Source: Gammaproteobacteria bacterium
Lineage (GTDB): Bacteria > Pseudomonadota > Gammaproteobacteria > Steroidobacterales > Steroidobacteraceae
Length of the DNA: 45,545 bases
Assembly: GCA_005878835.1 (NCBI GenBank)
Contig: VBMV01000093.1
Location: 1 to 45,545, forward strand
Direction of reading: 5' to 3'
Shown here: positions 480 to 45,545 of the stretch, piece by piece
Layout: every line of letters starts with the position of its first letter
How positions within the stretch are numbered: the stretch's first letter is position 1
The notes under the pieces: generated by a model
Databases searched by the model: none
The model's input: only the letters and a program-made list of their open reading frames with translations
Told to the model about the DNA's origin: nothing
Position numbers and translations under genes: made by a program

Positions 480-483
480 CGCG

Positions 484-1602: not shown

Positions 1603-1811
1603 GCCGCCTGTGGTAGCGGATTACGCTTGTCCGGCGCTCAGAGTAAACTGGTTTCGTAGTGCGGGCCCGAGCCGTTGTGGCCCGCCGCAGTGGCCGCCAT
1701 CACCCAGGAACCCCCATGGCGTTTCCGGACATCGTCGGTCACTTTCGCGGAAAGTTCGACTACGACGGATGGCTGTGGTACGCACTCCAGCGTGCGGAGG
1801 AAGCCTGTGAC

Positions 1812-5526: not shown

Positions 5527-5566
5527 GCGTCGATCAATGCACATAGTGGATCGATGGACATGAGCG

Positions 5567-6721
5567 ATGGCTAACGAGGCCTACATCATCGGCGCGGTAC
5601 GCACGCCGACCGGCAGGAAAAAGGGCAGCCTGGCGGGGGTGCACGCTGCGGATCTCGGCGCGCACGCGATCAGGTCGCTCATTGAGCGCACCGGCGTGGA
5701 TCCGGGAGAGATCGACGACGTCGTTTTCGGCTGCGTCGATCAGGTGGGACCGCTGGCCGGTGACATTGCGCGCACCTGTTGGCTCGCCGCGGGCCTGCCC
5801 GAGCATGTTCCGGGCACCACCGTAGACCGCCAGTGCGGCTCATCGCAGCAGGCGGTGCACTTTGCGGCGCAGGCCGTCATGAGCGGAACGCAGGACCTCA
5901 TCGTTGCCGGCGGCGTGCAGACCATGAACCAGATTCCGCTCGGGGCGGCGATGGTTGCGGGGCGGGCGTTCGGTCACTCCGACCCGTTCAGTGACTCGCG
6001 CGGCTGGCGCGAGCGCTATGGCGGTGAGGAGGTGTCGCAGTTCCGCGCGGCAGAAATGATCGCCGCGAAGTGGAATATCACCCGCCGGCAGATGGAGGAA
6101 TTCGCGCTCGAGAGCAACCGCCGCGCTACCCTGGCCATCGAGCGCGGCTTCTTTACGCGCGAGATAGCCCCCATCAACGGCCTGCAGCAGGACGAGACGC
6201 CGCGCGTGGGTACCACGCTCGAGAAGATGGCGAGGCTCGAGGCGCTCACCGCCGGCGGCCGCATCACCGCGGCCGTGTCCAGCCAGATCGCCGATGCCGC
6301 CGCGGCGCTGCTGATCGCCTCGGAGGGCGCTGTGAGGCGCAGGCGGCTCAAGCCCCGCGCGCGCATCCATCACCTCTCGGTTCGGGGTGCGGACCCCATC
6401 TGGATGTTGACTGCGCCCATTCCCGCGACGCAGTACGCGCTATCCAGGAGCGGCCTGACGCTCGCCGACATCGACCTGGTCGAGATCAACGAAGCCTTCG
6501 CCTCGGTGGTGCTCGCCTGGCAACGCGACCTGCAGGCAGACCCCGCGCGCGTCAACGTCAACGGTGGCGCGATCGCCCTCGGGCACCCGCTGGGGGCGAC
6601 CGGCGCCAGACTCATGACGTCGCTCCTTCACGAGCTGGAACGGCGCGGCGCGCGCTACGGCCTGCAGACCATGTGCGAGGGCGGTGGCCAGGCGAACGTG
6701 ACCATCATCGAGCGGCTGTGA
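5567..6721 (+). CDS. Thiolase family acyl-CoA acetyltransferase
   Basis: The 384-residue protein is a complete thiolase. It would cleave 3-ketoacyl-CoA with CoA, or condense acetyl-CoA units. The nucleophilic Cys is at residue 90 in [10 protein letters not shown], the NEAF motif follows (VEINEAFA), and the second active-site pair is present: His340 in [14 protein letters not shown] and Cys370 in [10 protein letters not shown]. Length is normal. The preceding bases carry only a weak purine-rich ribosome site. No other beta-oxidation gene (dehydrogenase, hydratase, ligase) is adjacent, so chain length and direction cannot be read from context. It could serve lipid, steroid or amino-acid degradation. 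The two regulator genes that follow are contiguous with it (GTG immediately after its TGA), suggesting one transcript. Possibly one of those regulators senses an amino acid or keto acid linked to this enzyme. Confidence 0.93.
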
Positions 6722-29448: not shown

Positions 29449-29641
29449 GGCTGCCTCACTTCGTTCGCCCCGCGCCCCCAGGCGTGGCCCGTCATCGCAA
29501 CCGCGCAGTACAGGCTCGAGTCACCGCCGAGAGGATTGTGCAGAACGTGCGAGTACCGGTCTACCGGTTCGGGCTCTCGGGATGTTTAATGATTACCGGC
29601 GTCGGCCGCGAGTGCCGGCATGGGTTTCCGGGAGGATGAGC

Positions 29642-31315
29642 ATGGGTCAATTCGGGTGTGCAACCTGCCTGGTAACGGCCCTCGCGCTGACCTGGTCCGC
29701 GACTTCGTTCGCGACCTCGAACGCGCCGAACCCGCAGTCCGAGAAGGCGGATAGCGAGCGGGAGAAGCCGGACGAGCGCAAGTTCGAGCCCTTCAAGCCC
29801 GAAGCAGTGACCAGCGCCGGCACTGTCACGGTCGGCGGTCAGGCGATCTCCTACCAGGCGATCGCGGGTACCTTCATCGTGCATCCGAAGGACTGGGACG
29901 ACGTGCCGCGCGATCCCAAGGCCGACAGGGCAGGCCCGGCGCCTGCGGAGGAGGGCGCGGAAGCCAAGAACCCGACTGCCGAGGCCTCGATGTTCTACGT
30001 GGCCTACTTCAAAAGCGGCGGCAGTCCGCGACCGGTGACGTTTTTCTACAACGGCGGTCCCGGCTCGGCGAGCCTGTGGCTGCATATGGGCGCGTTCGGG
30101 CCCCGCCGGATTGTCACGGCGACCGACGTACACACCCCGGCTGCGCCGTACGCCGTGGTCAACAACGGTTCGAGCCTGCTCGATGCAACCGACCTCGTCT
30201 TCATCGATGCACCTGGCACCGGCTTCAGCCGCATCGCCGGCAAAGACAAGGAGAAGGCGTTCTTCGGCGTCGATCCGGATGCCTACGCATTCGCTGAATT
30301 CATTTCCCAGTTCCTGTCGAAATACGGCCGCTGGAATTCACCCAAGTATCTGTTTGGCGAAAGCTACGGTACGCCGCGCTCGGCGGTGCTCGTCAATCAG
30401 CTGCAAGCGGACCGTTCGATCGATTTCAACGGGGTGATCCTGCTCTCCCAGATCCTCAATTTCGATCTGAGTCCCGATCGTCCGACGGGCAATCCCGGCA
30501 TCGATCTGCCGTACCAGACCGCGCTGCCGACCTATGCCGCAACCGCCTGGTACCACCACAAGCTCCCCGCGGAGCACCAGAGTCTCGATGCTCTGCTGGC
30601 CGAAGTGGAGCAGTTCGCCATGGGGGACTATGCCCATGCGCTCGCGAGGGGCTCCGAGCTCGGCGCGGCGGAACGCGCCGCCATCGCCGAGAAGCTTCAC
30701 CAGTACACCGGCCTTCCCGTCGATTACATACTCAGGGCAGACCTGCGCATCGACGGCGGGGAATTTCGCCAGAACCTGCAGGGCGATGATGGCAGGACGA
30801 CCGGCCGGCTCGACTCGCGTTTTTCCGGACCCGACATCGATCCTCTGAGTCAGCGCGCCGACTACGATCCGCAGGCCGCCGCACTCAGTTCGGCCTACGT
30901 CTCTGCATTCAACGATTATGTGCGCAGGGATCTGCACTACGGCGACGGCAAAGTCTTCAAACCGAGCATCCGCATCTTCACCACCTGGAACTTCCAGCAC
31001 CGGCTGCCGGGACAAACTCAGCAGCCGATGTCCTCGCGCCAGGGCTCCAACGTCATGCCCGACCTCGCGAACGCGATGAAGATCAACCCCAACCTGAAGG
31101 TGCAATTGAACGCCGGGTATTTCGACCTCGCGACACCCTTCTATCAGGGCGTCTATGAGATGCACCACCTGCCGATTCCCGCGAACCTGCAGGCCAATAT
31201 CGAGTACAAATTCTACGACTCGGGGCACATGGTCTATGCCAAGGACTCATCGCTCAAGATGTTGCACGATAACGTCGCGGCGTTCATTCGCCGAACCAGC
31301 AATCTCGGCAACTGA
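29642..31315 (+). CDS. Exported S10 serine carboxypeptidase
   Basis: The 557-residue protein is a carboxypeptidase Y-type enzyme that removes C-terminal residues from peptides. It has a signal peptide (about 1-26), a charged Glu/Lys/Pro-rich segment (about 28-55), the oxyanion motif FFYNGGPGSAS (134-144), catalytic Ser241 in FGESYGT, and His529 in YDSGHMVY. The third triad residue is probably the Asp in NAGYFDLATP. GGGAGG (29630-29635) is spaced 6 bases from ATG 29642 and touches the ATG at 29636, so 29642 is the better start. Bacterial S10 enzymes are common in proteolytic Gammaproteobacteria. It lies 15 bases before the trehalase gene, and both are exported, so a scavenging role is likely. 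Confidence 0.93.
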   Translation: MGQFGCATCLVTALALTWSATSFATSNAPNPQSEKADSEREKPDERKFEPFKPEAVTSAGTVTVGGQAISYQAIAGTFIVHPKDWDDVPRDPKADRAGPAPAEEGAEAKNPTAEASMFYVAYFKSGGSPRPVTFFYNGGPGSASLWLHMGAFGPRRIVTATDVHTPAAPYAVVNNGSSLLDATDLVFIDAPGTGFSRIAGKDKEKAFFGVDPDAYAFAEFISQFLSKYGRWNSPKYLFGESYGTPRSAVLVNQLQADRSIDFNGVILLSQILNFDLSPDRPTGNPGIDLPYQTALPTYAATAWYHHKLPAEHQSLDALLAEVEQFAMGDYAHALARGSELGAAERAAIAEKLHQYTGLPVDYILRADLRIDGGEFRQNLQGDDGRTTGRLDSRFSGPDIDPLSQRADYDPQAAALSSAYVSAFNDYVRRDLHYGDGKVFKPSIRIFTTWNFQHRLPGQTQQPMSSRQGSNVMPDLANAMKINPNLKVQLNAGYFDLATPFYQGVYEMHHLPIPANLQANIEYKFYDSGHMVYAKDSSLKMLHDNVAAFIRRTSNLGN

Positions 31316-31330
31316 TAGCGGAAGGAGCGC

Positions 31331-33010
31331 ATGAGCCCGCGCCGATGCGGGGCGCTGGTAGCGGCGCTAGCCGTCCTGCTGCCCGTTACGCGGACGCAAC
31401 CACGGACGACCCCGCCCGCGAGCCATCCGCAACCACCGCAGGTGCTGTTCAAGGACCTGTTCGTGGCGGTGCAGAGCGCCCGGGTCTACGGCGATGACAA
31501 GGCGTTTCCCGATGCCGCGGCCAAGGCCGCGCCGGCGGCAATCCTCGCGGAGTACCATGCGCAGCGACCCGAGGCGCCCGAGGCGCTGAGGCGCTTCGTG
31601 GCCTCGCATTTCACGCTGCCGTCGGAAGCGAGCACGGTGCCCTCCAGGCCCGAGCACGTCGCAATCGTCACCCACATCGACGAGCTGTGGGACCCGTTGA
31701 CGCGGCGCACACCGACCGCCCCCGCGTATTCCTCGCTGCTACCCACGCCGTGGCCGTATGTCGTCCCGGGCGGGCGGTTCCGCGAGATGTACTACTGGGA
31801 CTCGTACTTCACGATGCTCGGTCTGGAGGAGAGTGGACGGCATGATCTGATCGAGGACATGGTTCGCGACTTCGCCTATCTGATCGACACCTACGGCCAC
31901 GTTCCCAACGGCGTGCGGACGTACTATCTGAGCCGTTCTCAGCCGCCGTTCTTCTTCGCGATGGTGGGCCTGCTCTCCAGGGACGACCCGACCGCCTCCT
32001 TGGCACGCTTCCTCACGCAGCTCAGGCGCGAGCACGCCTTCTGGATGGAAGGCGCGCGGGGCCTGCGACCCGGTACGGCTCACCGGCGCGTGGTGGCCCT
32101 TGCCGACGGCGCGCTGCTCAACCGCTACTGGGACGACCGCGACAGCCCACGGGACGAGGCGTATCGGCATGACACCGAGCTGGCGCGCACCAGCGGGCGC
32201 AACCCGAAGCAGGTTTACCGCGATATCCGCGCGGCGGCGGAAAGCGGCTGGGATTTCGGCTCTCGCTGGTTCGCCGATGCACATACGCGCGCCACGATCA
32301 TCACCACCGAGATCGTTCCGGTCGATCTCAACAGCCTGCTGTTCGGCCTCGAGGAGGCCATTCGCGCCGCCTGCCAGCGCACGGTCGATGAGCCCTGCGT
32401 GAGGGAGTTCGAGCGCCGTGCGCACCAGCGGCGCGCGGCCATGGACCGTTACCTGTGGGATACGGCGGCCGGAGCGTATCTCGACTATCACTGGACAGAG
32501 CGTATTCGGGTGCCACGAATTTCTGCGGCAACCTTGTATCCGTTGTTCGTGAAGGCGGCCTCCCGGGAGCAGGCGGACTCGGTCGCCGCGACCATTGGCA
32601 GGCAACTCCTCGCGGCAGGGGGCATCGTTACGACGACGCAGAATACGGGCGAGCAATGGGATGCGCCCAACGGCTGGGCGCCGCTGCAGTGGATTGCTGT
32701 TTCGGGTCTGCGCCAGTATGCGCAGGGGCGCCTCGCCGAGACCATTGCCTGCCGCTGGATGGTCAGCGTCAACCGCGTGTACGGCGAGACCGGCAAGCTG
32801 GTCGAGAAGTATGACGTGATGAGCAGCGGCCGCAGCGGCGGCGGAGGCGAATACCCGCTACAGGACGGGTTTGGCTGGACCAACGGCGTGATGCGCAAGC
32901 TGATGGCGTTGTATCCCGCCGAGGCCGCCGATTCCCACGGCGAGCAATGCCCGAAGATTGCAAAAGGCGTGCAGCGCTTCTCGGCAGCCGTTTTGGCCCG
33001 TGCGCGCTAG
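31331..33010 (+). CDS. treA: Periplasmic-type trehalase (GH37)
   Basis: Trehalase splits trehalose into two glucose molecules. The 559-residue protein has both GH37 signatures, PGGRFREMYYWDSYF (about 146-160) and QWDAPNGWAPLQW (about 442-454), the catalytic Asp region SGWDFGSRWF, and the C-terminal GGGGEYPLQDGFGWTNG glycine-rich loop. A signal peptide (ALVAALAVLLPV) indicates a periplasmic enzyme like TreA. GGAAGGAG ahead of ATG 31331 is a strong ribosome site. The stop shares the CTAG tetramer with the stop of the convergent gene at 33007. It probably shares a transcript with the upstream carboxypeptidase gene. Confidence 0.96.
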   Translation: MSPRRCGALVAALAVLLPVTRTQPRTTPPASHPQPPQVLFKDLFVAVQSARVYGDDKAFPDAAAKAAPAAILAEYHAQRPEAPEALRRFVASHFTLPSEASTVPSRPEHVAIVTHIDELWDPLTRRTPTAPAYSSLLPTPWPYVVPGGRFREMYYWDSYFTMLGLEESGRHDLIEDMVRDFAYLIDTYGHVPNGVRTYYLSRSQPPFFFAMVGLLSRDDPTASLARFLTQLRREHAFWMEGARGLRPGTAHRRVVALADGALLNRYWDDRDSPRDEAYRHDTELARTSGRNPKQVYRDIRAAAESGWDFGSRWFADAHTRATIITTEIVPVDLNSLLFGLEEAIRAACQRTVDEPCVREFERRAHQRRAAMDRYLWDTAAGAYLDYHWTERIRVPRISAATLYPLFVKAASREQADSVAATIGRQLLAAGGIVTTTQNTGEQWDAPNGWAPLQWIAVSGLRQYAQGRLAETIACRWMVSVNRVYGETGKLVEKYDVMSSGRSGGGGEYPLQDGFGWTNGVMRKLMALYPAEAADSHGEQCPKIAKGVQRFSAAVLARAR

Positions 33011-34140: not shown

Positions 34141-34869
34141 ATGGACGCAAGCGCGGACGTTTCTGCGGCGCTACAACCATCAGCAAACGCCAGCAGCAGC
34201 GAGATTGCGAGCCAGCTGAGCGCGGCCGCCATCGATGCCGACGAGGGCATGGTCAAGCACATGCTGACGACCCTGTTGAGCTGTCAGCTGCGACGATCGG
34301 GCGAGCCGCTCCCCTCACAGCTGGGGGTGCTGCTGCATTTATTCCTGACGCTGCGGTCGATGGCCCTCAGCGACGACCTGACAGACCTTTACAACCGGCG
34401 GGGGTTCCTGCGAGCCGGCAACCGACTCTTGAGCGCCGCGAGCCGAGACAAGCACGGGGCGCTGTTGTTCTATATCGACGTCGATGATCTCAAGTCCATC
34501 AACGACACCGCCGGTCATGCCGCTGGGGATTCGCTGCTGATCCGGACTGCGCAGGTACTGCGGTCAGTGTTTCGCGACACTGACGTGATCGGCCGGCTGA
34601 GTGGCGATGAATTCGCGGCACTCGCTGCGGTAACCGATGCGGGTGCCTGCGATCTCATCGTGCGTCGTTTACAAGCTGCGATAGCCGCCGACAATCTCTC
34701 GCGTGCGGAGCCGTCTCTGTCTCTGAGCGTAGGGTTCGCACAGTTCAATCCGCGCCAGCCGAGCTCGATTTCGGACCTGCTCCGCAAAGCGGATCTGGTG
34801 ATGTACGAGGACAAGCTGGCAAAACTGGTTCGACCCGACCGCAACCTGAGCACTGTATTGCATGGCTAG
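34141..34869 (+). CDS. Diguanylate cyclase (GGDEF domain)
   Basis: The 242-residue protein makes c-di-GMP from two GTP. An N-terminal helical region of about 75 residues precedes the GGDEF domain. The active-site motif reads SGDEF (154-158), a functional variant of GGDEF, and the product-inhibition I-site RDTD (145-148) sits at the correct five-residue distance. The metal-ligand Asp lies in YIDVDDLKSIND. There is no membrane segment or known sensor domain. It begins 250 bases after a small unknown gene, and it is followed after 65 bases by a PilZ protein, making a natural c-di-GMP producer and receptor pair. The gene's position before the radical SAM operon suggests that its product may act on that operon (inference). 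Confidence 0.92.
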   Translation: MDASADVSAALQPSANASSSEIASQLSAAAIDADEGMVKHMLTTLLSCQLRRSGEPLPSQLGVLLHLFLTLRSMALSDDLTDLYNRRGFLRAGNRLLSAASRDKHGALLFYIDVDDLKSINDTAGHAAGDSLLIRTAQVLRSVFRDTDVIGRLSGDEFAALAAVTDAGACDLIVRRLQAAIAADNLSRAEPSLSLSVGFAQFNPRQPSSISDLLRKADLVMYEDKLAKLVRPDRNLSTVLHG

Positions 34870-34934
34870 GGCTGTGGCTCATCCACTGACGGCTGGCCAT
34901 GCGGATCGAAGGGCTGTAAGTCAAGGATGCAATC

Positions 34935-35267
34935 GTGCTATCGGGAAGAAATGAACATCGGGCCGCCATGCATCTCACTGCATGTCTGCAGAGTCGTGGC
35001 GAACCACCAATCGTCGAGACGGTCATGATTGTGAACATCAGCAGTCATGGCGCCCGCGTCCTCTCCCACCGGAACTGGCAGCCACACGAGCAGCTGGTAC
35101 TCACTGAGTTGGTCGGCGGGGATTATCACGTCGACGCCGAAGTCGTGTACTGCCAGCGCCTGGACCGCGATCAATGTGCTGTCGGCCTGAAGTTCGCCAA
35201 GGCCATTGACACGCAGTTGGCGGCGGCCGGCGGCAGTATCGGCATGCGATCAAGAGGGACTCCGTGA
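34935..35267 (+). CDS. PilZ-domain c-di-GMP receptor
   Basis: The 110-residue protein shows the two PilZ c-di-GMP-binding motifs in order: RxxxR at residues 5-9 (RNEHR) and NxSxxG at residues 34-39 (NISSHGARV), followed by strands ending QCAVGLKFAK. It is a single-domain receptor with a short C-terminal tail. GTG 34935 has AAGGA (34923-34927) upstream. It lies just downstream of the diguanylate cyclase gene and before the glycosyltransferase operon. In cellulose and alginate systems the PilZ domain is fused to, or works with, the synthase. A similar role here is inference. Confidence 0.85.
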   Translation: MLSGRNEHRAAMHLTACLQSRGEPPIVETVMIVNISSHGARVLSHRNWQPHEQLVLTELVGGDYHVDAEVVYCQRLDRDQCAVGLKFAKAIDTQLAAAGGSIGMRSRGTP

Positions 35268-35864
35268 AATACCCGCCAAGACGCCGCAGACCCGATGTGC
35301 GCATCGTTGAGTGGCGAGACACGGCGAACCGCCGTCGTATCGTGACCGCGTGTTCGACGGCCGGGTGCCGGCCATCGAATGTGTGTGCCGTGACGAGATG
35401 CGCCCCGGGGCGGATGTCGCAAGCGCAGCCGTCCAGGCGTACGCCGCGCCGACGTGCATCACCGCCCTGTTCGCGGCCCGCGAACGCCCGCTGCGACACC
35501 TGATCGCCGTGCCATCGGGCGGCGCTCGAACACCGTCGGGTCACGCCGCTCCAGGTCCCGGGGCGCGGGAGTGTGAGCCAGGTGCAGTGTGCAGCGCAGC
35601 ATCCGGAAATTCCTGATGTGGTGTTGCGCCTTTGGCCGACGCGCTGTTGCGGCTTTCCCCGGTTTGACCCACAACGCCGGGCTACTAGGCTTGTAGCGTT
35701 TCTTTGATGGGAGAAAACGCTCCTCCAAGAGTTTCTAGAGCAAATGCGGGAGAAAACGCTGCAGGCGCGTGCCGGTGGTGTTTCACAGGGACGTCCCTTA
35801 GCATCGTGCCACTCGAGGACCGCGTGATCCAACGCAAGGCCGGACAGGGAGGCCGATTCAATTG
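35268..35864. other. 597-base gap upstream of the radical SAM operon
   Basis: I see no gene that I trust. A 79-codon frame starts at GTG 35264 overlapping the PilZ stop (GTGA), but its product is Arg-rich and low-complexity. A second frame (35311-35616) reads better in part (VFDGRVPAIECVCRDEM) but has no start or ribosome site, so a decayed gene is possible. The last 170 bases hold the repeats described next and should contain the operon promoter. Confidence 0.5.
35695..35760 (+). promoter_or_regulatory. Repeated element with inverted copy upstream of the radical SAM operon
   Basis: The 13-base word GGGAGAAAACGCT occurs twice, at 35709-35721 and 35748-35760, 39 bases apart. Just before the first copy is AGCGTTTCT (35695-35703), whose AGCGTTT pairs with the AAACGCT of the first copy (35715-35721), making a stem with a short loop. 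Both copies precede the start of the seven-gene operon by 105-155 bases. The spacing (nearly four helical turns) suits two sites for one regulator. I cannot name the regulator. Confidence 0.5.
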
Positions 35865-37577
35865 ATGCGCTCGCCGCGGATCCTGCTGATTGGACCTTAC
35901 GACCCGCTTTGCGGGGAATACACCTTTCTCGCTCCTCCATTGGGGGTGTGGCGCCTCGCGGGCGTGCTCGAATCCGCCGGGGCCGAAGCGAAAGTCTTCG
36001 ATCCAAACTGTTGTGCAGGGCCACCCGGTCGCGCCCTCGAGCGCGAGCTCCTGGCATGTCCGTGGGACGTCATCGGCGTCTCGACCACCGGCATGACGCT
36101 GCGATTTGATCTCGAGCTGGCGCACCTCGCGCGACGTCTGGCGCCCCGGGCGCTGCTGGTCGCCGGTGGTATGGAGGCGACCTTCGGACCCGAGCTCATG
36201 TTCCGTCTCGGACCCTTCGACTGCGTCGTGCTGGGGGAGGGCGAGCGCCCGATGCTCGAGTTGGTCGCGCGACTGCGCTCCGGGGCGTCCCTGCGTGGGA
36301 TCACCGGAACCGCGGAGCGCGCCGCTGACGGGGGTTACGTGAGAATGCCGCAGCGGGCGCTCGACCGCACGGAGCTGCGCGACGCGATCTTCCGCACGCC
36401 CTATGAAAAGATGCCTTACAGCAGCTACTGGGACCGGCTCGAAGACGCGTACCGCGTCGGCGCCCTGCCGACCAAGGCGGCTCGCGAGGCGCGACTTGCC
36501 GAGGTCCGCTCGGTGCGCCTGATCACGCTCAACTACTGCCCCATGGGTTGCACTTTCTGCTCGTCCACGAACTTCCTGCACGAGGCCCAGGGAAGTGTCG
36601 CGAGCATTGCGCGGCTCGATGCAGAAGAATGTGTACAGATGCTGCAGCGTATCGTGAGTGCGCACCCTCGCGTGCGCACCGTCATCTTCCAGGATGATAT
36701 CTTCGTATTCACGAAGGACCGGCGCATTCTGCCGCTGTGTGAGGCGATCATCGCCGCCAAAGACACTGGCGCACTGCCGCGCGAGCTGCAGTTCATCAGC
36801 ACCAACCGTATCGACGCCATGTCGCCCGAGCGGTTGGCGGCCATGCGGCAGGCCGGCTTCCGCGTGCTCGGTTTCGGGATCGAGAACTTCTCGCACAACG
36901 TGCTCAGCGAATTCAACAAAGCCCATATTTACAGCCATATCCGACCGACGCTGACAACGGCCCTGGAGCTGGGCATCACGCCGTTCCTGGATCTGATCCT
37001 GAGCTCACCGCGCGCAACGCTCGCAGACATTGCCGCGACCTTGCGCGAGGCCTATCACTGGCTGCGGCAGGGGTGCGAAGTCGGAATGTATCCCTACGTG
37101 ATTCCGTTTTCGGGAGCCGCCATGTCGGCAGATCCCGCACTGCGACCGTTCACCGTCTACGAGCGCCGGCAGGTCGCCGGGACGCAGGTTGCGTGGGATC
37201 AACCCAGCAAGATCCTGCCGATGGACCCGGCGGTACGGGAGACCATTCTGCGCATCGAGCGCGACTTCGAGGAGTCATTGCTGCAGCTTCAGCCGCGCGC
37301 CGCGCATTTGCCGTCCCGGCTGCGCTCTTTGCTGTGGATTCAGTGCTCTGTGCAGGCCATGGCCGAGCAGGGACTGCCGATTGCGGACGCGGAAGAAGTG
37401 CGCAGCGAGTTCACCGCCAGGCTTCCGCAACTTGCCGACGCGGAGCCAGTGCGCAGCGAGCTCCCCGCCGCCGGGCTTGCGCAACTTGCCGACGCGCAGG
37501 CAGTGCGCAGCGAGCTCCCCGCCGGGCTTGCGCAACTACGCCCGCCGGCTGCCGTGCCGAGGGTGGCAACAGCATGA
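35865..37577 (+). CDS. B12-binding-type radical SAM enzyme with C-terminal repeats
   Basis: The 570-residue protein has an N-terminal cobalamin-binding-like Rossmann domain (about 5-140, with GGMEATFGPE and VVLGEGER typical of this group), then a radical SAM domain with the iron-sulfur motif CPMGCTFC (Cys225, Cys229, Cys232) and later SAM-binding strand motifs (FISTNRID, GFGIENFS). Such enzymes often methylate unreactive carbon or join C-C bonds. The last part (507-557) is three tandem 17-18-residue repeats. ATG 35865 follows GGGAGG (35848-35853) at 11 bases. TTG 35862 is equally possible. The stop overlaps the methyltransferase start (ATGA). Substrate unknown, possibly a lipid or glycan carrier given the operon. 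Confidence 0.9.
   Translation: MRSPRILLIGPYDPLCGEYTFLAPPLGVWRLAGVLESAGAEAKVFDPNCCAGPPGRALERELLACPWDVIGVSTTGMTLRFDLELAHLARRLAPRALLVAGGMEATFGPELMFRLGPFDCVVLGEGERPMLELVARLRSGASLRGITGTAERAADGGYVRMPQRALDRTELRDAIFRTPYEKMPYSSYWDRLEDAYRVGALPTKAAREARLAEVRSVRLITLNYCPMGCTFCSSTNFLHEAQGSVASIARLDAEECVQMLQRIVSAHPRVRTVIFQDDIFVFTKDRRILPLCEAIIAAKDTGALPRELQFISTNRIDAMSPERLAAMRQAGFRVLGFGIENFSHNVLSEFNKAHIYSHIRPTLTTALELGITPFLDLILSSPRATLADIAATLREAYHWLRQGCEVGMYPYVIPFSGAAMSADPALRPFTVYERRQVAGTQVAWDQPSKILPMDPAVRETILRIERDFEESLLQLQPRAAHLPSRLRSLLWIQCSVQAMAEQGLPIADAEEVRSEFTARLPQLADAEPVRSELPAAGLAQLADAQAVRSELPAGLAQLRPPAAVPRVATA
37383..37538 (+). repeat. Three tandem 51-54 bp repeats at the 3' end of the radical SAM gene
   Basis: Units start at 37383, 37434 and 37488 and share the core GTGCGCAGCGAG. 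Units 2 and 3 are nearly identical over 51 bases. Each encodes 17-18 residues of the form (L/I)ADA..VRSE..A.LAQ. The lengths are multiples of three, so copy-number change keeps the frame. Confidence 0.85.
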
Positions 37578-38347
37578 TCCGGCCCGCAGTGTACTGGGAA
37601 GAGCGCGCACGTCGCTTTGCAACCGAGGGTGACGGGCTCGCGGCCGTGTGCTCGTACGGCATGCCCGCGTTCTATAACCGGATGATTCATACCTGTCAGC
37701 GTTTGGCCCTCGAACCGTGGCTGCGGGTGCGCCGCGGCACGAGTGTGCTGGACGTCGGTTGCGGGGTCGGACGCTGGAGTCGCGAGCTCGCTTGCCGGGG
37801 CGCGCGGGTGACGGGTATCGACCTCAGTCCCACCATGATCGCGCAGGCCAAGCGGCGCGCTGCGGCGCAGGGTGTTGCGGGGCGCTGTCGATTCCTGGTG
37901 CAGGATCTGGCGCTGCTCGATGCCGGCCGGAAATTCGATCTTGTCCTGGGCGTCACGGTTCTGCAGCACATTCTCGAACCGCAGGCCTTACGCGCTGCCA
38001 TGCACCGCATGGTTGCTCACCTGGCGCAGCGCGGTACGCTGATCCTGCTCGAGGCTGCGCCGAATCGCGCGGTCGAGAGCTGCGACAGCCCGATCTTCCG
38101 AGCGCGCCAGCGCAGCGCCTACCTGCGACTCTTCGCCGACTGCGGTCTGCGCGTGCGAGCGATCACCGGGGTCGACCCCGCGCCGTTCAAGACCTGGCTG
38201 TGGCCCTACCTGCCGCGGCTGCCGCAGCGGCTGCGCACGGCAGCGCTGGCAGTCGTCACTGCCTTGTCGATCCCGATCGACGTGCTATTCGGCCGCGGAG
38301 CGGTCGAGCGTTCGTGGCACGCAGTCTTCATTCTGGAGCGCATATGA
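37574..38347 (+). CDS. Class I SAM-dependent methyltransferase
   Basis: The 257-residue protein has motif I VLDVGCGVGRW (58-68), then GIDLSPTMIAQAKR with the acidic residue that binds ribose, VQDLALLD and FDLVLGVTVLQHI. So it is a complete class I methyltransferase. The C-terminus has a hydrophobic stretch (RTAALAVVTALSIPIDVLFG) that may associate with the membrane, unusual for a cytoplasmic methyltransferase and consistent with a lipid-linked substrate (inference). Both ends overlap neighbours by 4 bases. It probably acts together with the radical SAM enzyme on the same molecule. Confidence 0.88.
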   Translation: MIRPAVYWEERARRFATEGDGLAAVCSYGMPAFYNRMIHTCQRLALEPWLRVRRGTSVLDVGCGVGRWSRELACRGARVTGIDLSPTMIAQAKRRAAAQGVAGRCRFLVQDLALLDAGRKFDLVLGVTVLQHILEPQALRAAMHRMVAHLAQRGTLILLEAAPNRAVESCDSPIFRARQRSAYLRLFADCGLRVRAITGVDPAPFKTWLWPYLPRLPQRLRTAALAVVTALSIPIDVLFGRGAVERSWHAVFILERI

Positions 38348-39591
38348 ACCCTAAACAACGAATTGCGCTTGCCGCCGGCACGTTCCTCCTGCTCGGAGTT
38401 CTTGCCTGGCTGGGCTGGTGGTACCACTCCGGACAGGCGGCACCCGGGCGGGCCGCCGGGACGCTGACGGTGAACGTCACCAGCCCGAATGACCTTGGGC
38501 CCGGCACGTTGCGGGAAGCACTGTTCGTCGTCGCCGCAGCCACCGGTAAGGCGAACGTCCTGATCAGGACCAAGAGCATCACGCTCAAGACCGCGCTGCC
38601 GCCGCTCATGAATTTGCACGGCGTGCGGATCGTCGGCGAATCGCCCGGCGTCGAGATCGACGCGCAGGGAGTTGCCGATGCACCGGTGTTCGACGTCACC
38701 GGCGCCAACACCTCGCTCGAAGGCCTGGTGCTGCGCAATTGCCGGGCGGCGGCCATCCTGGTGCGCGCCGCGCATTTCCATCTGCAGTCGAGCACCATTG
38801 AATCCTGTAACGTCGGCGTGGAAGTCGCCGAAAACGCCAGCAACATCCTCATCGAGCACAATCGTTTCGCGAACGACCGGGTCGGAGTGCGCTTCACGGC
38901 CCCGAATCGCGACACGATAGTGGCCGGCAACAGCTTCATACAGGACAAGGTGGCGGGTCTATGGGCAGTGCGCGGCGAGGGGGGCGCCAGGGGCGGCGGC
39001 GCCATCACCGTTCGCGACAACCACTTCAACGGCGATGGCAGCGGCGTCGTGGCCGGCAACGTTGCGATACTCGTCGAGCGCAACGACTTCGCCAATGCTC
39101 CCGACGGCGCGGTGCACCTGATCGGTGCCGGCGCGGTCATTCGCGGCAACCACATCGGTGGCGAGGCGCCGATGGGCATAATCGCGGAAAATGCCCGCGA
39201 CGCGATCATCGACGGCAATGAGCTCGAGCATCTTACGGCCTACGCCATCATGGTGCGTGGCTCGGCCAACGCGCTGCTGCGCGCCAACCGTGTGCACAAC
39301 TGCGGCTACGGTATTGCCTTCGTGCTCGGCGATCGTGCTCACCCCAGCACTGCCGTTGACAACACCATCATCGAACCGAAGTTCAACGGCATCGACGTGA
39401 TCGGAGATTCACCGATCCTGCGACACAACCAGGTGCTGCAACCGCACCTGTTCGCGCTGCACGTGGTCGATTTTCAGCAACCCGGTGCTCAGAACGTGCG
39501 GTCGCAGCCATTTCTGGAGGGCAACAATTTCCGCGCGGATGCGCTGCAAGTCGACAACGGCCCGGTTCCAGCAACGGCGCGACCGCAATGA
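38344..39591 (+). CDS. Membrane-anchored right-handed beta-helix protein
   Basis: The 415-residue protein has an N-terminal membrane segment (ALAAGTFLLLGVLAWLGWW, about 8-26), so the rest is periplasmic. It begins with the N-cap motif of many beta-helix proteins (SPNDLGPGTLREAL), followed by about a dozen coils with the parallel beta-helix pattern of G-x-x-I-x-x-N-x-(I/F) (for example ILIEHNRFANDRVGV, AVIRGNHIGG, AIIDGNELEH). The family includes AlgG epimerase, NosD and polysaccharide lyases. I do not see a specific catalytic signature that would separate them. In a glycosyltransferase operon, an AlgG-like polymer-modifying or protecting role is the best guess. Confidence 0.85.
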   Translation: MNPKQRIALAAGTFLLLGVLAWLGWWYHSGQAAPGRAAGTLTVNVTSPNDLGPGTLREALFVVAAATGKANVLIRTKSITLKTALPPLMNLHGVRIVGESPGVEIDAQGVADAPVFDVTGANTSLEGLVLRNCRAAAILVRAAHFHLQSSTIESCNVGVEVAENASNILIEHNRFANDRVGVRFTAPNRDTIVAGNSFIQDKVAGLWAVRGEGGARGGGAITVRDNHFNGDGSGVVAGNVAILVERNDFANAPDGAVHLIGAGAVIRGNHIGGEAPMGIIAENARDAIIDGNELEHLTAYAIMVRGSANALLRANRVHNCGYGIAFVLGDRAHPSTAVDNTIIEPKFNGIDVIGDSPILRHNQVLQPHLFALHVVDFQQPGAQNVRSQPFLEGNNFRADALQVDNGPVPATARPQ

Positions 39592-40985
39592 ATGACGGCT
39601 ACCGGACACAGCTGCTGCCGGCGTTGTTATGGCACGATCCGCGCATTCACCCGCTCGACGACACGTGGTTACTGACGATATTCACCATCGTGCCGGCGAT
39701 CGCGCTGCCCTGGTTCAACAGTGGGCTGCAGATCGACTTTGTCGCCACCACCATGGGGCTGCTGACTCTCGGGGCAATCCACCTCGCCTTCACGGTCTTG
39801 TCCAGTCGGGAGACCCGCCACCCGATTCGGCTCACGCGCACGCTCACGGCCCTGCACACGCTCGGCGTCATCACGGTGGCGTTCATCTGGCAGCACGCCG
39901 GCGGTGTGCAGAACCCGCTCTTTCTGCTGGTGTTCGCGCTGCCGGTCATCGGCGCCATCTTTCTTTCACGCTGGCAGCCGTATCTCATGGCCACGCTGGC
40001 TGCAGTCATGGTCGCGCTCATGGCTTCGAGCCAGGCACCCGAGTTGCGCTGGTATGCACCGGCGGGGCTGAGCGCGGCAGCAGACTGGCTGGGCGGCGTC
40101 CTCGTCAAGGCAACGGGTGCCGGCAGTCTGCCGTTCGCGGGCTTCTACGCGCCCGCGGCGTACTTTGTCATACTGCTCGAAGCGTTCGTGATCATGTTGT
40201 TCGGCTGCGCGGTCGCGGCGGAGTATCTCGCCGGCATCTTCGAGCGACTGCGTGGGCAGGCCGCCTCTGCCCGCGCTGAAACGGCGCGCAGTCAGGCGCT
40301 GTGGTCCGCGCTCCTGGAACAGCTGCCGCTGCCGGCGGTTCTGCTGGATGCCGATACGCACGAAGTCGTGGGTGCAAGCGCGCCCGCAGTGGCGAAGTTT
40401 TTCGGCGGTGAAGAGTCGGTGGTTGGCCGCGACTTCTTCCAGGCCATCCACTTCTCCTACCCGGAGGCCGTGCAGCAATTGATCGACGGCGCGGGTGGCG
40501 TGGAGCCACAGAGCATGGTTCGGTTGGGCGAACAACTGCTGGCAACCGAGGTGCGCGTGCAGCACCTCGCGCAGAATGGGCGCCGCCTGGCCCTGGTCGT
40601 GGTCAATGACACGACGGAGGCCCTGTGCGTGCGGGCCGCGCTCGACGTAGCCGAGCACGCCGCCCTGGTCGCAGACCCGCAGGGGCGCATCCTGGCGTTC
40701 AACAGGCCCGCTCGCGCGCTCTTCTCCGGGACCCAAGTCGGCGCCGAGGTGTCGGGCCTGCTGCCGCAATTCCAGCCGGGGACGCGCTGGTGGGATCCAG
40801 GGCTGAGCGGCCGTCGCAAGATGCATGTGACGGTCATGCGGCGCGTGTATCAGCTCACCACCTCGTCGGTGCCGCTGCCCGGCGAAGATACGCGGCTGTA
40901 CGTTGTCGCGTTCCTCCCGGTGGCGCGGGTCGCCGCGGCGGATCAAAGTCCCGTCGGCTCTACTACAGTGGTGGAGCGGCCTTGA
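39588..40985 (+). CDS. Membrane protein with RegB-like quinone box and PAS-like domains, no kinase
   Basis: The 465-residue protein has about six membrane helices in its first 215 residues. Between helices lies GGVQNPL (105-111), which matches the GGxxNPF ubiquinone-binding box of the RegB/PrrB redox kinases, with Leu for Phe, followed by the conserved-like LPVIGAIFL. Residues about 235-450 look like two PAS-like domains (for example PAVLLDADTHEVVGAS and AALVADPQGRILAFNRPARA). There is no His phosphoacceptor or ATPase domain, so this is not a kinase. It could detect the quinone redox state and pass it to a partner, for example the EAL protein in the same operon. This idea is inference. The start is ATG 39588, overlapping the previous stop (ATGA). 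Confidence 0.85.
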   Translation: MNDGYRTQLLPALLWHDPRIHPLDDTWLLTIFTIVPAIALPWFNSGLQIDFVATTMGLLTLGAIHLAFTVLSSRETRHPIRLTRTLTALHTLGVITVAFIWQHAGGVQNPLFLLVFALPVIGAIFLSRWQPYLMATLAAVMVALMASSQAPELRWYAPAGLSAAADWLGGVLVKATGAGSLPFAGFYAPAAYFVILLEAFVIMLFGCAVAAEYLAGIFERLRGQAASARAETARSQALWSALLEQLPLPAVLLDADTHEVVGASAPAVAKFFGGEESVVGRDFFQAIHFSYPEAVQQLIDGAGGVEPQSMVRLGEQLLATEVRVQHLAQNGRRLALVVVNDTTEALCVRAALDVAEHAALVADPQGRILAFNRPARALFSGTQVGAEVSGLLPQFQPGTRWWDPGLSGRRKMHVTVMRRVYQLTTSSVPLPGEDTRLYVVAFLPVARVAAADQSPVGSTTVVERP

Positions 40986-41803
40986 GCACCCGTGCAATCA
41001 CGGTGTGCGTGGCTGTGGCGCTACCCTGCGCCCAGGCCGCCGCGGTCGAGCCGCCCTCGCCATCACCCACCCCGGCGGCGGTGGCCGACCAGCGCCTGGT
41101 GTTCAGCACCAACGGATCGAGGCTGACGGGCGGGATCGGCGGGGGCGGCGGCTCAGCCTCCTGGGTGGGGGGCCTCGGCAACGGGACCGTGATCGGCGCG
41201 GGTGCCGAGTACCAGACGATCTCGAATTCCCATTGGACACTCGGCACCTTCAGCGGCGCGCTCGCGCCCGGGCTCAGGACCCACCTGTACCTCGAGGGTC
41301 GCGAGGGCGCGGGGGATGTCGGCGACCGCGCCTTCCACTATTCGCTCCTTGTCGCCGGCTTGCTCGAGCAGCTCACATCTGAGCTCTCCGTGCAGCTCGA
41401 GGAGCGCCGCATCGATATCGATAAGAGCCACGGCAACCTGCCCAAGCTCGGGCTTTCGTTCCAGGTCACACCCCAGCTCCTGGCTTCGATCTCGTACGCC
41501 GTTTCTCTCGGGGGCAATCTCGGCACCCACCTCGGAACGGGGCGCATTGACTACACCGGGCACAGCTTCAGCGCGATTGCCGGCATATCGGGCGGGCCGG
41601 TCGCGCCGGCGGTTCTCGACCTGAACGGGCTCGTGGTGGCGCCCGGCCCGCAGCTGCGCGAGGGTTTTGTCGGGGTCGGCAAGCCCCTGGGGCCCACCGA
41701 CTGGCTGCTCATCGGTGACTACCAGAACGTGGGTGGAACCAGGCGCACCAGCCTCTCGCTGACGTGCACCGTTCACCTGCACCCACCAGCTCAAGTGCCA
41801 TGA
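40982..41803 (+). CDS. Outer-membrane beta-barrel candidate
   Basis: The 273-residue protein starts at TTG 40982 in a TTGA overlap with the previous stop, with a signal peptide (ITVCVAVALPCAQAAA). The mature part begins with a Pro-rich stretch and then has strands with alternating polar and nonpolar residues (HWTLGTFSGALAPGLRTHLYLEGREG, split by short turns, KLGLSFQVTPQLLASISYAVSLGG), typical of a small outer-membrane barrel of perhaps 10-14 strands. There is no final Phe. It ends in a Pro-rich tail. I cannot tell an export channel from a structural protein. Position in the operon suggests an export port. Upstream GTG codons are not attractive starts. Confidence 0.7.
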   Translation: MSTRAITVCVAVALPCAQAAAVEPPSPSPTPAAVADQRLVFSTNGSRLTGGIGGGGGSASWVGGLGNGTVIGAGAEYQTISNSHWTLGTFSGALAPGLRTHLYLEGREGAGDVGDRAFHYSLLVAGLLEQLTSELSVQLEERRIDIDKSHGNLPKLGLSFQVTPQLLASISYAVSLGGNLGTHLGTGRIDYTGHSFSAIAGISGGPVAPAVLDLNGLVVAPGPQLREGFVGVGKPLGPTDWLLIGDYQNVGGTRRTSLSLTCTVHLHPPAQVP

Positions 41804-44223
41804 CCACGATCGACCTCAAACACCTTTCGCGATGGCTGCCCGCCACGCTGGTCGCGGCGGTGGTGCTGCTGGCGGGCGCGCGCCTGATCACCTTGAGCAT
41901 GCGTGACCACGCCGCGCAGATGCGCAGCGCGGCGCAGAGCACGGTGACGCGTGAGACGCGGCTGATCGAGGCCCAGCTCCAGGCGCTCACCGATCGCACC
42001 CGCGATGAGGCGCGCCGCGCGGCCCGCACGCTCGCGCAGGGCGCCGACTCCGCGCCGGCCGCCGGCGCGGGTCCCGGCCGGGGCGCCTTCTGGATGAGCG
42101 CCGGCGGCACGGTCGCGCGTGCCGGGGACGCCGACACGGCCGTGAGCCGGGCCCTGGCGAACGAATGGGCGGTGACGGCGGCGAGCGCGCGCGCGCCGAC
42201 CGGGATCTTCGGTCCGGTGCGCTACGGCAGCCAGTGGATCATCGCGGCGTACGCCCCCATCGAGGCCCCGCAGGCGAAGGCAGCGGCGGCCTCTCCCGCC
42301 TGGGCCGTGGGTTACCAGAGCCTCGACGCGCTGTTGGTGCGCGCGGGCTTCGGACGAGTGGTGAAGGACGGATTCGCCTTCCAGATCAACCAGACCGATC
42401 CGCTGACCCATGGGGTGAGAGAGCTCTTCGGGTCCCGCCCGGACATGCCGTCCGACGCGGTGGCGAGCGCGATTCGTGCGCCCGCGGCTTTCTCCCCGCC
42501 GAACGCCTCAGCCTACCTGCAGCTCGCGCTGCGGCCGCGGACGGGCTGGTACCCGACGGGCGACCTGGCGACCAGGACGGGTCTCCTTCTTCTGCTCGCC
42601 TGGGCGCTGGTGTTCGGCGCGCACGAGATGACGGCGAGCCTCGGCCGCATGCAAAGCGCGCTCGCGCAGGCGCGCAAACGGCTGCACGCGGTCAACGATC
42701 GCCTCGGCGCCGAGATCGAGCAGCACCAGGCGCTGCAGAGGAGCCTCGAGCATGCACGCTACCACGACCCCTTCACCGGGCTGCCGAACCGCCGCTACTT
42801 CATGGATCAACTTGATCGAGCCCTGCGCGAGTTGCGCAATCGACGCCGGCAGCGCATTGCGATAGTTCTGATCGACATTGACCGCTTCACGCTCATCAAC
42901 GACACGCTGGGTCACACCGCCGGCGATGAGCTGATGCTGCAGGTGGCGCAGCGCTTCGCCAAGGCGCTCGAGGGCGTGGAATGCGTGCTGGCCCGTTGGG
43001 GGAGCGAGCAGTTGGCCGTGCTCGTGCACGAGGTGCAGTCGCCCGCGGCCGCACACGCCATCACCACCGCGCTTCAAAACGCGCGCCAGGAGCCGTTCGC
43101 GCTGCGCCAGCACCGCGTGAAGATCGCCACGCGAGTGGGATTTACCTGCATCGACTCGGGGCTGCAGCGCGCCGAGGACGCGCTGCGTGAGGCGGACGTC
43201 GCCTTGTCGGTCGCCAAGCGGCAGCAGAATCAGCTCACCGTTGCATACACGCCGGGCATGGGCGGCGCCGCCGTGAGCCTGGTCAGTCTCGAGGCCGACC
43301 TGCATATCGCTCTCGAGCGCAACGAGTTCCGCCTGCTTTTCCAGCCCATCGTCGATCTGCGCGGCCAGCGCGTCGTGGGCGCGGAGGCACTGCTCAGGTG
43401 GCGGCATCCGGTGGAAGGCCTGTTGACGCCCAACGACTTCCTGCCCATCGCGGAGGAGGCCGGAGTGATCGTTCCGGTGACGCGTTGGATCATTCAGCGA
43501 GTGTGCCGACTCGCGGCCGAGTGGCGCAGGCGCTTGCCGCAAGGCGTGAGCTTCTACATCAGCGTCAATCTTTCCGCGACGGTACTGCGCGATCCGGGGC
43601 TGCGCGACTACGTCGCGCGTGTGCTCGAGGAGACCCGCACGCCACCCGGGCATTTGAAGTTCGAGCTTACCGAAGGCGGTCTCATGAGCAACCTGAGCGC
43701 GGCGCGGGAAGCTCTCGACGCGTTGCACGGGATGGGTATCGAACTGATGCTGGACGATTTCGGGACCGGCTATTCATCGCTCAGTAACCTGCAGTTGTTC
43801 CCGTTCGACTATGTGAAGATCGATCGTCCATTCGTCAATCGCACCGGATCGGAGCGCGCCAACAATGCGATCACGTCGGCGATCCTGCAGATGACCTCCA
43901 GCCTGGGGTTGCGTGCCGTCGCGGAGGTCGTGGAAACGCAGGCGGCTGCGCAGGCTCTGCTGCAGATGGGGTGCAATTTCGGCCAGGGATACTTCTTCTC
44001 CGCACCCGTGGAAGCCGAGCAGGCCCTGGAGCAGTTGCGCCATTACGTGCCCCCGTCGACGACGGCCGTGCCCACAGTCCGGGCGGCAGCCGGCGATGCG
44101 GGCCAGGGCGCGGGCGACACCTTGGTGCTGGCGGATTCACCCACCGTGAAGGTGCCGGAATCACCGACCCTGGTACTGTCAGAGGACGAAATGAATGCGC
44201 AGCACACGGTTCAACGGCGATGA
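41800..44223 (+). CDS. Membrane GGDEF-EAL protein with degenerate GGDEF and apparently intact EAL domain
   Basis: The protein of 807 residues has TM1 (about 13-32), a large periplasmic region (about 35-255) and TM2 (about 260-275), then GGDEF (about 320-480) and EAL (about 495-745). At the cyclase site the motif reads WGSEQL (400-405) instead of GGDEF, and no I-site is present, so cyclase activity is not expected, though the nearby IDIDRF is kept. The EAL domain has EALLRW (529-534), NLSAT, ELTEGG, DDFGTGYSS (652-660), KIDR and GQGYFFSAP. The usual AEGVE reads AEVVE, with the Glu kept. It can be a phosphodiesterase or a receptor. Start ATG 41800 (ATGA overlap). An in-frame start at 41764 is ruled less likely. 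Confidence 0.93.
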   Translation: MTTIDLKHLSRWLPATLVAAVVLLAGARLITLSMRDHAAQMRSAAQSTVTRETRLIEAQLQALTDRTRDEARRAARTLAQGADSAPAAGAGPGRGAFWMSAGGTVARAGDADTAVSRALANEWAVTAASARAPTGIFGPVRYGSQWIIAAYAPIEAPQAKAAAASPAWAVGYQSLDALLVRAGFGRVVKDGFAFQINQTDPLTHGVRELFGSRPDMPSDAVASAIRAPAAFSPPNASAYLQLALRPRTGWYPTGDLATRTGLLLLLAWALVFGAHEMTASLGRMQSALAQARKRLHAVNDRLGAEIEQHQALQRSLEHARYHDPFTGLPNRRYFMDQLDRALRELRNRRRQRIAIVLIDIDRFTLINDTLGHTAGDELMLQVAQRFAKALEGVECVLARWGSEQLAVLVHEVQSPAAAHAITTALQNARQEPFALRQHRVKIATRVGFTCIDSGLQRAEDALREADVALSVAKRQQNQLTVAYTPGMGGAAVSLVSLEADLHIALERNEFRLLFQPIVDLRGQRVVGAEALLRWRHPVEGLLTPNDFLPIAEEAGVIVPVTRWIIQRVCRLAAEWRRRLPQGVSFYISVNLSATVLRDPGLRDYVARVLEETRTPPGHLKFELTEGGLMSNLSAAREALDALHGMGIELMLDDFGTGYSSLSNLQLFPFDYVKIDRPFVNRTGSERANNAITSAILQMTSSLGLRAVAEVVETQAAAQALLQMGCNFGQGYFFSAPVEAEQALEQLRHYVPPSTTAVPTVRAAAGDAGQGAGDTLVLADSPTVKVPESPTLVLSEDEMNAQHTVQRR

Positions 44224-45545
44224 AGTCCCCGAGTCGCGAGCGCTTCGATGATGCCCAGCGCCCCTGGAGTCTGTTCGCGCTGTTCAGCGTGTGCGCACTG
44301 CTGGTGGGATGGATTGCGCTGTCGGCGACGACCGATGAGGGCGTCTCGTTACTGGTCTATGGATTGGCGAATCTGATCGTATTCACGGACGCGATCGATT
44401 TTGGGGTGCGACTCTACGTGCATCGGCGACATACCGCGGTCGCGTCCGAGCTCGGCGGCGGCGAAACGCATCTGCTGTCGATCGATCTCGCGGGCGCTCG
44501 AGGCGCCCGCACCGGCTCGGTACGCGTCCGGCCGTACGCGATCATCGCCTCGATATACAATCTCGAGGACGAGCTCGATGAGTTCATGGAGCGGCTGCAG
44601 CCGTACCGCGATCACATCTGGCTCATCAGCGACGGCTCGACCGACAAGACCGCGAAACGCCTGCAGCAGGCCGGCTGGCGGTGCCTCGACGAGGAGGTGA
44701 ACCGCCACAAGCCGGGGGCGCTGCGTCACCTGCTCGCGACGCTGCCGCCGCGGGTCGAGACCGTCATGGTCATCGATCCCGATGTCAGGATCTGCGGCCG
44801 GCACGAGGGCAGTGTCGTCGATCTCGAGCGCGCCATCGCAGACCTTCAGCGATCGGGGGCCGCGGCAGCCTGCCCGCGCATCGCGATCGAGCGGGACGGC
44901 TTTCTGGCGCGGTTTCAGGCGCTGGAGTACACCCTGTGCTTCATGGTCGGGCGGCGCAGTCTCGCCGACTACGGCGTCACCTCCGGCGTCTCCATTTACC
45001 GGCGCGACGCGCTCGAGTGGGCGCTCGCGCAGCATTCAATGTCGATCTACGCCGAGGATCTCGAGAATACCGTGATCCTGCTGCACGCCGGTGAGCGCAT
45101 CTACTACGACGGCCGGCTGGTGGTGAGCACCCACGGGCCGCACACTGTGCGCCGCTGGTACTCGCAGCGGGTGGGCTGGTACTACGGCTTCCTCAGGCTA
45201 TACACGCAGCGTACGCGCGAGCTGTGGCGTATCGGGCGGCGTGCTCCCTTTGCAATGTACAACTTCATCGGCTACATGGGCGTGCTCGGACTCGGGCTGC
45301 ACGTGCTCAGGATCGCGAGCGCAGCGCTGCTGCTCGTGAGCGCCGCGGCGATACTCGACGGTCTATTCGCGTTGGGTCTACTGCCTACGGGCCGAGCGAT
45401 CAACCCGGTGGCCTTCGCGGGCGCGATCGGCAGCTACCTGGTCCTCGCTGTGATCGCGCTGTTCACGGTCGTGCCCAGACGCGAGCGCGCGTACGTAGGA
45501 CCCATCCTGCCGATCTACTTCCTCTATGTCCTCGCGCACATCGTT
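44220..45545 (+). CDS. Membrane family 2 glycosyltransferase (truncated at window edge)
   Basis: The first 442 residues are visible and the gene continues beyond the window. Two membrane helices (about 17-35 and 43-60) precede a GT-A domain with Asp138 in SDGSTDKT, K164PGALRH, the DxD motif DPD (186-188), and the acceptor-side AED at 278-280 in place of the usual TED. The last processive-synthase motif, QxxRW in BcsA and HasA, reads QRVGW (316-320), so the Arg is replaced. More membrane helices follow. It overlaps the previous gene (ATGA). It probably makes or elongates a glycan at the inner membrane with a nucleotide-sugar donor. The QxxRW change leaves open whether it is processive. Confidence 0.9.
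   Translation, partial: MKSPSRERFDDAQRPWSLFALFSVCALLVGWIALSATTDEGVSLLVYGLANLIVFTDAIDFGVRLYVHRRHTAVASELGGGETHLLSIDLAGARGARTGSVRVRPYAIIASIYNLEDELDEFMERLQPYRDHIWLISDGSTDKTAKRLQQAGWRCLDEEVNRHKPGALRHLLATLPPRVETVMVIDPDVRICGRHEGSVVDLERAIADLQRSGAAAACPRIAIERDGFLARFQALEYTLCFMVGRRSLADYGVTSGVSIYRRDALEWALAQHSMSIYAEDLENTVILLHAGERIYYDGRLVVSTHGPHTVRRWYSQRVGWYYGFLRLYTQRTRELWRIGRRAPFAMYNFIGYMGVLGLGLHVLRIASAALLLVSAAAILDGLFALGLLPTGRAINPVAFAGAIGSYLVLAVIALFTVVPRRERAYVGPILPIYFLYVLAHIV

Follow-up and report, generated by a model that had tools for sequence, protein, structure and literature searches.

Introduction

The synthase-type systems known to export glycans are few, and they shape biofilms and soil aggregates. 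The poly-N-acetylglucosamine (PNAG; Pga/Ica) system has a membrane synthase of glycosyltransferase family 2 (GT2), an outer-membrane barrel and control by cyclic diguanylate (c-di-GMP), and the alginate system combines a GT2 synthase with a periplasmic beta-helix protein, an outer-membrane barrel and c-di-GMP. The PelF-type glycosyltransferase of the Pel system belongs to another family than GT2. Similar enzyme kinds are encoded by the Nod-factor genes (GT2, deacetylase, acyltransferase and methyltransferase) and by the mycofactocin genes (radical S-adenosylmethionine (SAM) enzyme, GT2 and methyltransferase). In the NfrBA (NGR) system of Escherichia coli, a glycosyltransferase and an outer-membrane protein are reported to be under local c-di-GMP control (PMC8669469). 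Here we analyze a seven-gene operon that shares parts with these systems, located in a stretch of 45,545 nucleotides from a gammaproteobacterium of the Steroidobacteraceae (GenBank assembly GCA_005878835.1, contig VBMV01000093.1). This stretch, the window, is the entire contig C66 of its genome.

A sequence-only reading of the window had proposed an envelope glycan system linked to c-di-GMP and redox state. The seven genes probably form a single self-contained module, tied to c-di-GMP, for making and exporting a cell-envelope or matrix glycan. The module is recognized by gene identity, linkage, co-inheritance, predicted folds and motif states, and from these we infer an envelope glycan as the product. 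Since the module is present in cultured isolates of Steroidobacter and Peristeroidobacter, the proposal is testable.

A conserved seven-gene operon

The gene kinds and their order agree with the sequence-only reading, as judged by matches to Pfam and other models and by the barrel prediction:

35865..37577, + strand: B12-binding radical SAM protein, first core gene (PF02310 5.4e-16, PF04055 5.4e-11)
37574..38347, + strand: class I SAM methyltransferase, core (PF13649 2.9e-22)
38344..39591, + strand: right-handed beta-helix protein with an N-terminal membrane helix, core (PF13229 6e-26)
39588..40985, + strand: multi-pass membrane protein with a PAS-like region, weakly RegB-like and without kinase, core (PAS matches below the Pfam cut-off)
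40982..41803, + strand: outer-membrane protein, predicted to be a beta-barrel with about 14 strands, core (assumed TTG start; no Pfam match over cut-off)
41794..44223, + strand: degenerate-GGDEF/EAL protein, usually the last core gene (PF00563 3.9e-72, PF00990 2.1e-36)
44220..45545, + strand: membrane glycosyltransferase of family GT2, truncated where the contig ends (PF00535 7.5e-6, PgaC model 50.9 bits)

The operon starts at 35865 and reaches the end of the contig; its successive junctions overlap by 4, 4, 4, 4, 10 and 4 bases. A scan of named genomes, which detects only loci with either of two exact peptide patterns and misses diverged ones, gave 50 loci, 39 of them (L041-L079) at 62% identity or more. 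All seven families are present in 22 of these 39, including two with the last gene cut (L047, L059) and one with split reading frames (L049). Thirteen others are cut by contig ends with at most 249 bases left (L041, L046, L055, L056, L057, L063, L065, L068, L072, L074, L075, L078, L079), and four are variants. The barrel frame is broken in L042; L070 has a hybrid histidine kinase as its seventh protein; L073 is without the GGDEF-EAL protein, carries a GGDEF domain on its PAS protein and has a response regulator downstream; and L076 holds, at the barrel position, an open frame of barrel-gene size without Pfam match.

The genes are not scattered in other genomes: those of the radical SAM protein, GT2, methyltransferase, beta-helix and PAS proteins stand together in all 26 uncut loci. 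The order radical SAM, GT2, methyltransferase, beta-helix, PAS, barrel, GGDEF/EAL is kept in 20 of the 22 complete loci; GT2 comes last in the window, L042 and L043, and is preceded by methyltransferase, DUF2334 and acetyltransferase-like genes in L069. Across loci the module genes mostly overlap or nearly touch (starts set by script). No flanking gene family is found in more than 5 of 40 loci, ten recurring in 3 to 5; F0, F2, F7 and F8 are limited to the Steroidobacter group, and response regulators (F1) and DUF2334 (F5) occur also at distant loci. Pairwise protein distances are correlated, with r of 0.81-0.98 when every locus is used (19-36 per pair) and of 0.82-0.96 without the ten loci L065 and L068-L076, none of 999 permutations being as high, a result that shared descent alone can give. 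That unrelated genes lie here side by side by chance is scarcely credible: no point in its support was found, and it is contradicted because content, order and spacing are conserved across genera and phyla. Judged by this conservation, the seven-gene operon is a real, self-contained module.

The distant locus L080 (37% identity) has only a radical SAM protein, a YaiO-type barrel, a GT2 and a methyltransferase, which are perhaps the minimal unit. Diverged second versions occur within the same genus, one with PAS, beta-helix and GT2 homologs (L038 of G017, 3-5665) and one with the beta-helix gene alone (L039, 8352-10523). Genes of the alpha-amylase/CBM48 family adjoin the module at L045:15479-17419 and L080:7843-9756, two distant loci where coincidence is possible.

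Distribution

Carriers, some of them soil bacteria, include Steroidobacter gossypii, S. agaridevorans, Peristeroidobacter soli, P. agariperforans and many gammaproteobacterial bins, together with bins labelled Acidobacteria, Thermoanaerobaculia, Gemmatimonadetes, Rhodothermaceae and Actinobacteria. A search of 99 genomes for the beta-helix protein gave 31 matches at E <= 0.001, 16 strong (E <= 1e-80) and 15 weaker. The strong relatives are in 16 of the 58 genomes of the window's genus, its own included, the weaker ones also belong to this genus, and none was found in the 41 genomes searched outside it. Within the family, 32 of 217 genomes, from 6 of 25 genera, matched the radical SAM profile; it was also matched in one of 369 genomes of a class-wide sample, which is the window's own, and in 4 of 396 genomes of the phylum of L073, seed included; with the radical SAM protein of L080 one of four genomes was matched, that of L080 itself. 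The PAS protein has at least 961 relatives (E <= 1e-5) and the GT2 at least 1194 (E <= 1e-40), counts that do not include genomic context; the names in the listed rows are generic.

The radical SAM tree (39 rows) places 27 proteobacterial rows and the window in one clade (support 98/99). A single acidobacterial bin is the neighbour of this clade (92/83); the remaining rows, among them the proteobacterial bin L075, are unresolved below. The patchy distribution suggests that the gene set passed between lineages by transfer, but bins can hold stray contigs.

Putative regulatory proteins

The PAS protein had been described as carrying a quinone box. A weak RegB-like match stands, NF033792 matching 6 of 15 members at E <= 0.01 and the six-helix RegB-type membrane part aligning at E 0.007 (hhalign, probability 5.5%). 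The box itself does not: the loop reads GGVQNPLF in the window, against the RegB heptapeptide GGXXNPF, whose exact form is found in none of 33 PAS proteins (GGxxNP in 20, G[GAS]xxNP in 29). No histidine kinase domain was found by Pfam in the window protein. On these grounds RegB membership was rejected. The c-di-GMP half of the proposed linkage is supported and the quinone or redox half is weak.

The operon GGDEF-EAL protein has two hydrophobic segments flanking its N-terminal domain (hydropathy). Its GGDEF domain is degenerate, as had been proposed, with GG[DE]EF in none of 26 rows from 25 genomes. The catalytic EAL residues are kept, E and N in 26 of 26 rows and DD, K and Q in all 25 uncut rows; the ExxE motif is altered in L043 and L075. 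The EAL domain is thus a predicted phosphodiesterase. The c-di-GMP link is supported by this protein and by the fusion of GGDEF (RLGGDEF) to the PAS protein of L073, as well as by genes upstream of the operon in the window's subclade. Further GGDEF/EAL-type genes lie near L060 and L075. Two upstream genes are non-core additions of the subclade:

34141..34869, + strand: GGDEF protein, diguanylate cyclase with motif SGDEF (PF00990 2.3e-33)
34935..35267, + strand: PilZ-domain protein (PF07238 1.3e-8)

Upstream GGDEF genes are found at the window, L041, L042 (minus strand) and L043, and PilZ genes at the window, L023 (89% identity; same contig as L041) and L043. The cyclase and the PilZ gene do precede the operon in the window, as the sequence-only reading stated, and since they do so in this subclade only they are outside the conserved module.

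Glycosyltransferase, contig end and neighbouring genes

The GT2 gene, last in the window operon, runs off the contig. The last 106 bases of the window are identical to the first 106 of contig C33 of the same genome, whose start matches residues 411-490 of a relative's GT2, so that C33 very likely follows C66; the remainder of the gene would be bases 1-259 (L133). Past the GT2 end (L133 306-3270) the opposite strand encodes an acetyltransferase-like protein and a DUF2334 protein; next comes a response-regulator gene with 75% identity to the LuxR-type response regulator of L042. The close relative G034 carries barrel, GGDEF-EAL and GT2 genes followed by the acetyltransferase-like/DUF2334 pair on a single contig. 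In the window genome, G034, L043 and G046, to which L042 belongs, this pair adjoins the operon; in L069 it lies within. The DUF2334 proteins of relatives are 57-89% identical to that of the window genome, and one Asp and an Hx3H are conserved in the five proteins compared, an arrangement that presumably resembles family 4 carbohydrate esterases. The DUF2334 protein was not accepted as an established deacetylase, since the search for solved relatives gave none of use.

Other neighbours were noted at single loci or in small groups. MBOAT and AlgX-like genes, a pair typical of polysaccharide O-acetylation, are directly upstream of the operon at L051:2035-4743; a gene of a polysaccharide-flippase family (PF01943) is immediately downstream at L062:11597-13414. 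In L044, L047, L048, L050 and L054, all of the Steroidobacter group, a gene upstream of the radical SAM gene encodes a TPR protein whose C-terminus is barrel-like (barrel model below cut-off). At 29582-33010 of the window two large genes resemble, by eye, a serine carboxypeptidase and a trehalase.

Proposed function and alternatives

In the proposed mechanism, GT2 would act at the inner membrane, polymerising or transferring sugar. Methylation of the sugar precursor or chain would fall to two enzymes, the class I methyltransferase and the B12 radical SAM protein (CX3CX2C in 40 of 40 loci; B12-binding domain PF02310 in that of the window), the latter probably acting on an unreactive carbon. In the periplasm the glycan may be bound, guided or edited by the anchored beta-helix protein, and the barrel would let it cross the outer membrane. 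A membrane signal would be sensed by the RegB-like PAS protein, which would act with the GGDEF-EAL protein, whose EAL residues are intact, to lower c-di-GMP locally; the hybrid kinase in last place in L070 indicates that this output may be exchangeable. The window's subclade would add to this set the cyclase, the PilZ protein and the DUF2334/acetyltransferase pair. If this is true, envelope glycan production would be tied to B12 supply and perhaps to respiration.

A bolder version is possible though doubtful. The module would make a new class of envelope glycan, a polymer or lipo-oligosaccharide with sugars carbon-methylated by B12 radical chemistry and, in some lineages, N-deacetylated and re-acylated; it would be exported through its own barrel, a signal from the quinone pool would be passed on to local c-di-GMP, and the set would have been passed between Proteobacteria, Acidobacteria and Gemmatimonadetes.

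Several observations weigh against a c-di-GMP-tied glycan module. The kinase of L070 makes the c-di-GMP link not universal. Three more would fit a module that makes or remodels a membrane glycolipid, the radical SAM enzyme methylating lipid, GT2 adding one sugar, and barrel and beta-helix protein carrying the lipid, or some hydrophobic compound, through the envelope: the lipid-related models HpnR, HpnJ and rSAM_ladder_B12 match the radical SAM protein in 11 of 11 members, FadL and TodX are among the best structural neighbours of the barrel, and GT2 shows weak matches to ArnC-type lipid-linked sugar transferases. However, every radical SAM match is far below cut-off, models of ribosomally synthesized and post-translationally modified peptides (RiPP) and BchE match as well, PgaC is the best model by count in 18 of 20 GT2 members, and the topology of GT2, with two N-terminal and three C-terminal hydrophobic segments (hydropathy), suits processive synthases. 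A glycolipid product is rather unlikely. No B12 radical SAM methyltransferase equivalog was reached at cut-off by the radical SAM members.

The barrel was also considered as a YaiO member; PF19413 matches that of the distant L080 and none of 12 members of A6, there was no useful match to a solved sequence, and the assignment was rejected. PelBC appears once among the Foldseek matches of the barrel (rank 50) and is not among the 50 matches listed in a second structural comparison, which excludes nothing. In L042 and L024 the barrel gene, between the PAS and GGDEF-EAL genes, is split over two frames, an assembly error or a pseudogene.

A small modified oligosaccharide serving as signal or cofactor, as in Nod factors or mycofactocin, would account for the NodC and MftF models matching 3 and 2 of 20 GT2 members, for a NodS-type match of the methyltransferase (PF05401 2.9e-12) and for the DUF2334 and acetyltransferase-like pair of the window's subclade and L069. 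Yet that methyltransferase matches 22 other Pfam families, the pair is missing from most loci, neither an ABC exporter nor a precursor peptide is encoded among the seven genes, and the NodC equivalog TIGR04242 scores 17.0 bits with the window GT2 and 20.7 with that of L024 against a cut-off of 550. Such a product is improbable.

Comparison with known systems

No described polysaccharide or lipid-modification locus was matched by curated family searches or by a text search of the open-licence literature, with most subscription journals outside it, and on this basis the module is taken as undescribed. It is quite improbable that it is a disguised PNAG-, cellulose- or alginate-like system to which genes for regulation and methylation were added, despite a GT2 closest to PgaC, a beta-helix protein as in alginate and c-di-GMP control.

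PNAG shares with the module the three features named in the Introduction, and the DUF2334 gene near the operon in the window's subclade and in L069 may be a counterpart of its deacetylase. Nevertheless, the window GT2 is far from the cut-off of the PgaC equivalog TIGR03937 (50.9 against 422.3 bits), no PgaB or PgaD family is found in the seven window proteins, and the module adds radical SAM, methyltransferase, beta-helix and PAS proteins. In cellulose (Bcs) synthesis the differences are the PilZ domain, found on none of 20 GT2 members at E <= 0.01 (the window's own being truncated), and the BcsB-type and TPR outer-membrane families, absent from the seven window proteins. Membership of either system was rejected on the family searches and GT2 scores.

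Alginate is alike in its four parts, and most of the defining features tested for alginate, Pel, PNAG and cellulose, which are among the systems with which the sequence-only reading had asked for comparison, separate the module from each of them, the alginate beta-helix fold being shared. The structure model of the beta-helix protein (predicted local distance difference test score 88.9) has structural matches with AlgG/AlgE-like fold, which is the fold of alginate-type beta-helix epimerases. DPHD, the catalytic motif of alginate epimerase, is in none of 35 beta-helix proteins (L059 has GDPHN), and an epimerase identity, though fitting the fold, was rejected on this absence; no Alg44, AlgK or AlgX family is found in the seven window proteins. 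The module enzyme is a GT2 by Pfam, unlike that of Pel. NfrBA is alike in pairing a glycosyltransferase and an outer-membrane protein with c-di-GMP, and differs in its gene set (PMC8669469) and in the MshEN domain, which is in none of the 20 GT2 members.

The RegB/PrrB/ActS redox kinases show a weak match to the PAS protein in the membrane region, where the GGxxNP loops align, and differ in the kinase domain and the exact heptapeptide. The Nod-factor and mycofactocin pathways use similar enzyme kinds; no family reaches its cut-off, and the module adds the barrel and the beta-helix protein. In summary, the module is, by this comparison, one that would work like synthase-dependent exopolysaccharide systems, yet it lacks features that define cellulose, PNAG, alginate, Pel and NGR synthesis and for which it was tested; an operon uniting B12 radical chemistry with a sugar synthase and a c-di-GMP enzyme sets it apart from all the families compared here.
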